Assembly (NCBI GenBank): GCA_905221615.1
Contig: CAJNDT010003223.1
Coordinates: forward strand, 744,001 to 808,000
From: Symbiodinium sp. CCMP2592
Lineage: Eukaryota; Sar; Dinophyceae; Suessiales; Symbiodiniaceae
DNA length: 64,000 nucleotides
Reading direction: 5' to 3'
Program-made: the position numbers and the translations under genes
In this document: one piece after another, positions 2,235 through 24,813 of the stretch
Position numbering within the stretch: the stretch's first letter is position 1
Layout: each line of letters starts with the position of its first letter
Notes under the pieces: generated by a model
Told to the model about the DNA's origin: nothing
Database searches by the model: none
What the model saw: only the letters and a program-made list of their open reading frames with translations

Positions 2235-3291
2235 ATGAACCCGAGGTCCTGCACCACGATGTACGGCAAGCACGACAAGAAGACCTTCAGGGGGACCGCC
2301 CACTTGCGACCACTTGCGACCGGATTTGGATATATCGGGTTTCCAGCGTTACGGGGCTTCAGGGGTGAGGCTGTAAGACTGAAGGAGATTCGTCTATAGA
2401 GCTGGCCGTCGCCACCGCGGAGTTTTCGGGTTATGAGCTTCCAGGCTAAGATTAATAGTCTAGAGCCTTGTACCCTAAGCCTAAATCCTAAACCCAAACT
2501 GCCAGAAACAGGTTCGGAGACAACTTTCAGATCAGGACTTGATTAAAGAAGAGGGCTGTAATAGATGATATTCCATGACCGAGTATGGTACTCCATAGCG
2601 GTATACAGAGCTGCAGCGTAGATTCGTGCAGAATAGTGCATATGTCACGACACGACAGGACCGAGCACCAGCGAACAAGAATGTGTCAAGCTCACAGGTT
2701 CTAAATCTATGATTTCCACAGACACATTCAGCACGATCTACTTAAATCAGACCACACCAAGAAACGGAAGGCGAAGAGATGGAGCCAGGAGCCAACATGT
2801 AGATGTGCCGCGACTGCAGGGAATCTATGCCTGCACATTCAGCTATCGCAGGAAGCAGCATGCCCACAGCTTCGGTAAGTACCGCATGCGCAAGAACAAG
2901 GCGGCTGCTTGCGGCTACAGGGTTTAGGGTTGAAGCTTGTTGTCGTAGCAAGGACCAGAAATGTTCGAGTACGGTTGAGACTTGCTTCCGGTTCTCTTTG
3001 TGGTACCAATCGCTTGGGTTTGTACTTCTGCAGGCGCGACGCATCCAGGCAATCAAGCTGCGCACTGAGACGGCTGTGCCATGTGACTCACGTCCTTTGA
3101 ATGCCTGCTTGGAGGTTCATGGGTAGTTATAAGTGGGGTGATAAGTCCCCTCATATGGGTTATAAGTATACTTGCCCTACTTGAAACCCTACTTATAACT
3201 ACCCATGAACCTCCGAGCTTTGAATGCTGAGCTGGACCATCGGTGTCTCTGTCAGGAACGGAACCTACGACCCCGAGAATACGCCCCAGAG
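2235..3291 (+). CDS. bTHX / RPS31-like small ribosomal subunit segment (4 exons)
   Basis: Exons 2235-2293 and 2852-2900, joined across a GA-AG intron, read [20 protein letters not shown]. This matches the bTHX/RPS31 core (compare GDKKTKKGKRFKGSYGNSRP in plant mitochondrial RPS31), a tiny basic protein of bacterial-type 30S subunits. Exon 3034-~3072 continues in phase as [12 protein letters not shown], like the basic tail of organellar RPS31, and 3256-3291 as [13 protein letters not shown] Met at 2235 could be the start, but the 5' presequence is not clear; the frame is open back to 2208. No stop precedes the next exons, so this may be the N-terminal part of the EF-Ts polyprotein or a separate gene whose end I missed. 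The core match is good; boundaries are inferred. Confidence 0.55.

Positions 3292-24813: not shown

Follow-up and report, generated by a model that had tools for sequence, protein, structure and literature searches.

Does this dinoflagellate locus encode one polyprotein in which a small ribosomal protein is joined to two units of EF-Ts, or do separate genes lie next to each other? We analyzed a window of 64 kb (G000:C3223:744001-808000) taken from an assembly of 1.098 Gb in 5383 contigs; coordinates without a contig name count from the start of this window. An earlier note on this DNA had proposed that phase-matched exons run without a stop from a bTHX core through an aromatic domain and a linker into two EF-Ts units. 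The spliced plus-strand model bears this out, with an open frame of 869 residues and zero stops over 40 exons, including four upstream presequence exons (Table 1). The length is a lower bound; the last recognized exon, T2k, ends at a donor (24813). The proposed start at 2235 (MNPRS) did not hold up as well: it is probably not the start of the gene, and the ATG there makes more sense as intron sequence. A better first exon of the bTHX core begins a few bases later (E1), behind the acceptor cccgAG/GTCC (slash, splice site), and the start codon likely lies at C3223:742874, 1.1 kb upstream of the window. The product appears to be a polyprotein of bTHX, a Pro/Glu/Lys linker, and two EF-Ts units behind one chloroplast-targeting signal. 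Judging from sequence alone, we consider it probable that a single dinoflagellate nuclear gene encodes this plastid-targeted bTHX-EF-Ts polyprotein.

The 21-mer of the dinoflagellate spliced leader occurs 429 times as an exact match in the assembly (217 + 212), and the reversed control sequence occurs 0 times, which identifies the genome as that of a dinoflagellate. Donors in the introns of the gene are of the GC, GA, and GT types, all of which are known from dinoflagellates (PMC11453091, in the portion consulted). For 19 introns, an uninterrupted copy could be aligned to set both ends; all of them follow the rule G[C/A/T]...AG, with AG/G in 18, and AG precedes the donor in 9 of the 19. An assembly gap was ruled out by the complete lack of N in the window and the preceding 20 kb (a misjoin free of N would not show).

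Table 1. Exons of the spliced model (window coordinates unless a contig is named)
Feature	Position	Strand	Basis
X1, likely start exon, hydrophobic, MSHSHIVGAVTCPETTRRTALAFGVSSLMVLAFCG	C3223:742874-742976	+	hydrophobicity scan; ~3.4 kb upstream of E1
X2, with FVA motif, LQQSFVALSPAGAASPRSE	C3223:743272-743330	+	likeness to paralogue presequence
X3, candidate transit-peptide exon, AGFAKNVRGYTPRAAAAERRQ	109..171	+	in phase, AG acceptor; donor provisional
X4, candidate second hydrophobic segment, SYLRLALGAAVAL	1285..1322	+	in phase with E1
E1, first half of bTHX core	2246..2293	+	TIGR04560 match jointly with E2; aligned to intronless paralogue
E2, second half of bTHX core	2852..2900	+	TIGR04560 match, paralogue alignment
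E3, bTHX tail	3034..3056	+	indel-free paralogue alignment
E4, aromatic domain start	3256..3292	+	paralogue alignment
E5, aromatic domain	3511..3566	+	paralogue alignment
E6, aromatic domain	3854..3890	+	paralogue alignment
E7, aromatic domain	4221..4265	+	paralogue alignment
E8, aromatic domain end	4565..4639	+	paralogue alignment; TAG 4652-4654 stops unspliced read-through
L1	5357..5440	+	phase 0, AG/GC acceptor; boundaries picked by phase and motif
L2	6884..6937	+	phase and motif
L3	8042..8068	+	phase and motif
L4	8948..8977	+	phase and motif
L5	9289..9327	+	phase and motif
L6, 11 residues	10163..10195	+	tandem unit of ~400 bp; exon conserved, intron diverged between units
L7, tandem unit	10553..10585	+	exon conserved, intron diverged
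L8, tandem unit	10954..10986	+	exon conserved, intron diverged
L9, tandem unit	11355..11387	+	tandem repeat comparison
L9b, tandem unit	11756..11788	+	in-phase exon
L10	11991..12023	+	phase and motif
L11	12586..12618	+	phase and motif
L12	12817..12849	+	phase and motif
L13	13407..13433	+	phase and motif
L14	14240..14269	+	phase and motif
T1a, EF-Ts unit 1, N-terminal UBA-like part	16395..16436	+	tblastn, structure and profile matches
T1b, EF-Ts unit 1, UBA-like part	16632..16676	+	tblastn, structure and profile matches
T1c, unit 1 remainder, Lys/Glu linker, unit 2 start (~17736)	17064..17848	+	PF00889, 94.7 bits on 17064-17861
T2b, EF-Ts unit 2	18173..18275	+	ends set by alignment to unit 1
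T2c, EF-Ts unit 2	18607..18696	+	PF00889 search, alignment to unit 1
T2d, EF-Ts unit 2	18767..18814	+	alignment to unit 1
T2e, EF-Ts unit 2	19549..19575	+	alignment to unit 1
T2f, EF-Ts unit 2	20249..20304	+	alignment to unit 1
T2g, EF-Ts unit 2	21548..21576	+	alignment to unit 1
T2h, EF-Ts unit 2	21992..22032	+	alignment to unit 1
T2i, EF-Ts unit 2	22844..22871	+	alignment to unit 1
T2j, EF-Ts unit 2	23405..23452	+	alignment to unit 1
T2k, EF-Ts unit 2, last recognized exon	24735..24813	+	alignment to unit 1

The bTHX/RPS31-like core suggested for the first exons was supported by profile search. TIGR04560 (ribo_THX; curated cut-off, 26) scored 30.2 bits with a provisional 48-residue peptide of E1 to E3 and 27.0 bits with the 239-residue N-terminal model; Pfam Thx (PF17070) scored 23.1 bits with the provisional peptide and 20.4 bits in a further scan, both below that family's own cut-off of 29.7. 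The match to bTHX/S31 covers a core of 26 residues, and among solved structures the window peptide comes closest to chains of plastid S31 (E about 0.01; best, 0.0091). For the aromatic domain, which the earlier note had called unknown, the Pfam and NCBIfam profile scans gave zero family matches, and PDB matches were at chance level.

Only one other clear bTHX gene was found in the genome when TIGR04560 and the N-terminal protein served as queries, with all 20 and all 35 of their candidates scored, respectively. This paralogue (C4224:375541-376206) is intronless and encodes 221 residues, arranged as a presequence with two hydrophobic stretches, the bTHX core, the whole aromatic domain, and a stop directly after PPEVQTP. 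It aligns to the N-terminal query with 80% identity over query residues 7 to 158 (E = 1.8e-52) and scores 27.1 bits with TIGR04560 (cut-off, 26). Because an uninterrupted gene carries both parts, we read E1 to E8 as one conserved protein, and the ~75-residue C-terminal domain on bTHX is new. The modeled exons and the paralogue are identical at 98 of 112 residues (87.5%), of equal length, and without indels, where the ends of E3, E5, E6, and E7/E8 were set by the paralogue and the rule-conforming splice sites give the indel-free fit. A bTHX that ends at the TAG just after E2 was ruled out, as the frame of the paralogue continues past that point.

Third codon positions account for 56 of the 71 nucleotide differences between the two bTHX copies, and dN is 0.08 (dS was inestimable, as with saturation). 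Purifying selection on both copies is therefore very likely. These values also bear on the idea that the gene in the window is the relic of a fusion, now in decay, with the paralogue as the working bTHX gene. The presence of a second intact bTHX gene would fit such decay. However, the modeled E1 to E8 have neither stop nor frameshift, their identity to the paralogue and the pattern of substitutions speak against it, and the same gene carries the sole EF-Ts found outside a seemingly bacterial contig; we regard a relic as very improbable. A bTHX that is at once conserved, extended, and duplicated comes as a surprise and offers a handle on the plastid ribosome.

At 1107-1114 of the paralogue's locus (L004), 60 bases upstream of its ATG (1174), stands GGCTCAAG, with which the spliced leader ends (8 bases). 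This match, noticed post hoc, may be a relic of retroposition. A search of viral contigs for relatives of the paralogue gave 8 pattern matches, of which 0 were confirmed.

Plastid bTHX/S31 is PSRP4. A mitochondrial bTHX was considered and rejected: the presequence of the paralogue has a signal-peptide-like stretch followed by a second hydrophobic stretch. The S31 structure matches are split and do not settle the matter (the nearest solved chain to the paralogue is mitochondrial S31, E = 0.021). The predicted bTHX would be a member of the plastid small ribosomal subunit. For the window gene, X1 and X2 came from scanning the nearest 6 kb for hydrophobicity and from reading the nearest 2 kb. The 14-residue mean hydrophobicity of X1 is 2.24, compared with 2.06 for the first stretch of the paralogue, whose second stretch was judged by eye. 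LQQSFVALSP in the window, with an FVA motif, stands at a place like that of LQTCFSSPSP in the paralogue. The FVA motif marks class I presequences of peridinin dinoflagellates (PMC3055265, in the part consulted), and the motif together with two hydrophobic stretches would fit the class I layout of signal peptide, FVA/SP motif, and second hydrophobic stretch, if candidate X4 is that second stretch. X3 and X4 were placed only by phase and appearance, and the donor of X3 (GG) violates the splice rule. Presequence-like N termini make plastid targeting of the predicted product likely.

Both EF-Ts units claimed for the locus exceed the curated cut-offs of two families, with 188.4 (unit 1) and 192.0 (unit 2) bits for tsf (TIGR00116; cut-off, 104.05) and 102.6 and 112.2 bits for PF00889 (cut-off, 27). 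They share 79% identity over 212 residues with zero indels, at a dN of 0.144 and a dS of 1.66. Together with the substitutions in the bTHX part, these rates point to purifying selection on the predicted bTHX and EF-Ts units alike. SETDFVA, with the TDFV motif that contacts EF-Tu, is present in both units. Among solved structures, unit 1 is closest to Thermus EF-Ts (E = 5.1e-51), far ahead of bovine mitochondrial 1xb2 (4e-13), and the two predicted units are short-form.

In the PF00889 genome search (3 of 3 candidates scored; a mitochondrial EF-Ts in small exons could escape it), EF-Ts was found only here and on contig C5051 (2.96 Mb). The latter was rejected as a second dinoflagellate gene. 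Its same-strand neighbors resemble, by eye, ribosomal protein S2 and superoxide dismutase, and the contig, which carries this S2-EF-Ts-like pair, apparently represents a bacterium whose DNA was assembled along with that of the dinoflagellate. No third EF-Ts unit was found by tblastn with the two EF-Ts queries in the 64-kb window or the preceding 20 kb. A scan of genome contigs returned at least nine bacterial EF-Ts; among the matches listed, the best was an Omnitrophica MAG at 49% identity, and none was cyanobacterial by title. For the EF-Ts exon, viral contigs gave 600 pattern matches and 0 confirmed relatives.

bTHX and EF-Ts are separated by 15 small exons (L1 to L14 plus L9b), which together encode 185 Pro/Glu/Lys-rich residues and whose lengths are all multiples of three. 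Sixteen introns separate E8 from T1a; their donors are AG/GC (14), AG/GT (1), and GG/GT (1), and all 16 acceptors are AG/G; the boundaries were chosen for phase and motif, and this regularity is a matter of consistency and not independent evidence. Independent support for the linker exons comes from the tandem units, which keep their exons while the introns diverge. L6 and L7 differ at 1 of 33 exon positions and 87 of 374 intron positions, and L7 and L8 differ at 0 of 33 and 38 of 368, respectively. The five tandem-unit exons span 10163-11788. Over 368 bases, introns L8-L9 and L9-L9b show no difference, which makes that duplication a recent one.

The telomere-type heptamer CCCTAAA/TTTAGGG occurs 399 times in the 64 kb (mean of 15.4 in 10 first-order Markov sequences) and 0 times in the modeled exons; 28 of the 39 introns have one within 200 bases of an intron end. 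Several families of short intronic elements with terminal inverted repeats (at ~3110-3210, 4684-4797, 8632-8750, 13198-13385, 14103-14220, 17897-18010, 19150-19255, and 23288-23390) look, by eye, like dinoflagellate introners. The intron that separates the linker from EF-Ts contains a (CA)n tract of ~1.1 kb (15121-16223).

The whole fusion claim is carried by the putative join of E8 to L1, from 4639 to 5357. The reading phase fits across this splice, and no in-frame Met occurs in the 216 residues (207 to 422) between residue 206 in E8 and residue 423 in T1b. The 717-base gap contains five ATGs, with frames of 27, 17, 15, 7, and 1 residues, none of them presequence-like. Among unspliced frames that start with ATG, none in 4640-9795 resembles a presequence; under looser criteria, the 134 ATGs of 4640-16394, again read without splicing, gave 14 hydrophobic frames from 9796 to 14824, the first after L5. 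The plus strand of the window has no spliced-leader relic with up to 6 mismatches in 21, and the minus strand has one, outside the gene (6 mismatches; 58803 in reverse-strand coordinates). Neither a processed copy spanning the E8-L1 join nor another joined locus was found among the 150 candidates scored out of 12,017 first-look candidates in the genome. Matches to the join query on contig C493 were discarded as Pro/Glu/Lys-rich stretches with four stops each.

These observations allow a single gene to be weighed against two adjacent ones, in which bTHX would end either at TAG 4652-4654 or partway along the linker exons, and a separate trans-spliced EF-Ts gene with an N-terminal exon of its own would follow. 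Tandem genes and trans-splicing occur in dinoflagellates (PMC11453091, in the part consulted). The unspliced E8 ends in ARRIV and a stop, close to the way the stand-alone paralogue ends, and the E8 donor could arise by chance. The 14 hydrophobic frames might supply the N-terminal exon: three lie between L14 and T1a, beyond 14700, and phase-0 donors follow the hydrophobic stretch in five of the eight frames tested. However, AG precedes the donor in 0 of these 5 phase-0 cases (a weak argument, with AG at just 9 of the 19 homology-fixed donors), and several of the hydrophobic frames belong to introns that are repeated along with the tandem units. The region up to 9795 has nothing presequence-like, yet L1 to L5 within it are already linker, and the linker style begins at the end of E8. 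With the Met-free stretch also against it, a pair of genes seems to us decidedly unlikely.

A locus that makes both forms is another reading. Intron retention or early polyadenylation after E8 would give bTHX alone and splicing into L1 the polyprotein; alternatively, presequence exons spliced straight to L1 would give EF-Ts alone. The likeness of the E8 read-through product to the end of the stand-alone protein fits such a mixture, as do X2 and X3, which end in phase 0, and L1, which starts in it. Against this, bTHX alone is already supplied by the intronless gene. We give the mixture, which overlaps the one-gene reading, a rather low probability.

Under the favored reading of one gene, a single mRNA, presumably trans-spliced, would encode a precursor of at least 869 residues. 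It would consist of a bipartite presequence, bTHX with its C-terminal domain, the linker, and two EF-Ts joined by a Lys/Glu linker, and would be imported by the signal-peptide route. The flexible linkers may then be cleaved in the stroma. The Chlamydomonas polyprotein PETs is reported as cut and its Arabidopsis homologue as uncut (PMC8343077, in the part consulted); cleavage of the present polyprotein could therefore go either way. bTHX would join the small ribosomal subunit, and EF-Ts would serve the recycling of plastid EF-Tu. Thermus EF-Ts acts as a dimer, and the EF-Ts pair may work as a covalent version of it. Such a built-in dimer could explain the tandem EF-Ts in green plastids, Euglena, and here. 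If the fusion is true, the pairing becomes testable as functional (EF-Ts dimer and fixed stoichiometry) versus a mere sharing of the targeting signal.

The comparison with the Chlamydomonas PSRP-7/EF-Ts polyprotein that had been drawn for this locus is apt. In PETs, PSRP-7 forms the N-terminal side and EF-Ts the C-terminal side of one plastid precursor, and its Arabidopsis homologue, EMB2726, has two EF-Ts domains (PMC8343077, as far as the consulted text goes). A pair of EF-Ts domains is reported for rice OsAL7 too (PMC12156993). The predicted protein resembles PETs in having a small-subunit ribosomal protein before EF-Ts and two C-terminal EF-Ts domains, as in EMB2726. It differs in that the ribosomal part of PETs consists of two S1 domains, whereas here it is bTHX with an unassigned domain, in a dinoflagellate host. 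No S1 domain was detected in the N-terminal 239 residues by NCBIfam scan (THX models only at E <= 0.01) or in the paralogue by Pfam scan (Thx and RPS31 only).

In Euglena, a parallel absent from the earlier note, plastid EF-Ts consists of a presequence followed by two EF-Ts monomers with a linker, and ribosomal proteins are delivered as the fusions L15-L10 and L28-L17. The two-unit EF-Ts polyprotein behind a plastid presequence is thus shared, as is the delivery of ribosomal proteins in fused form, but the consulted text describes no join of EF-Ts to a ribosomal protein (PMC6242988). Dinoflagellates themselves make polyproteins of chlorophyll a-c proteins, luciferase, and form II Rubisco. These likewise carry repeated units in one precursor, for Rubisco with a plastid signal in front, but they repeat one protein (PMC11453091, in part), whereas the predicted polyprotein opens with another protein than the units that follow. 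With bTHX/S31 of plastids, mitochondria, and Thermus, the 26-residue core is common; here it is followed by the ~75-residue C-terminal domain, for which the scans gave no family match, and by the putative fusion to EF-Ts.

The suggestion that the ribosomal partner of EF-Ts is both different and new agrees with the literature searched. Portions of papers on bTHX, EF-Ts, plastids, and dinoflagellates yielded no bTHX-EF-Ts fusion, and the consulted parts of PMC4042851 and PMC11014865 contain nothing on one. bTHX thus looks new as a fusion partner of EF-Ts, with the green PETs and the Euglena EF-Ts polyproteins as close precedents. If the fusion is true, the join of a ribosomal protein to two EF-Ts exists in different plastids with different partners. 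On balance, we favor a PETs-like plastid polyprotein built outside the green lineage, in which bTHX with a new C-terminal domain and two EF-Ts are made in a fixed ratio. Taken with PETs and the Euglena tandem, such a polyprotein would suggest that plastids repeatedly pair short-form EF-Ts and couple how much of it is made to the small ribosomal subunit.
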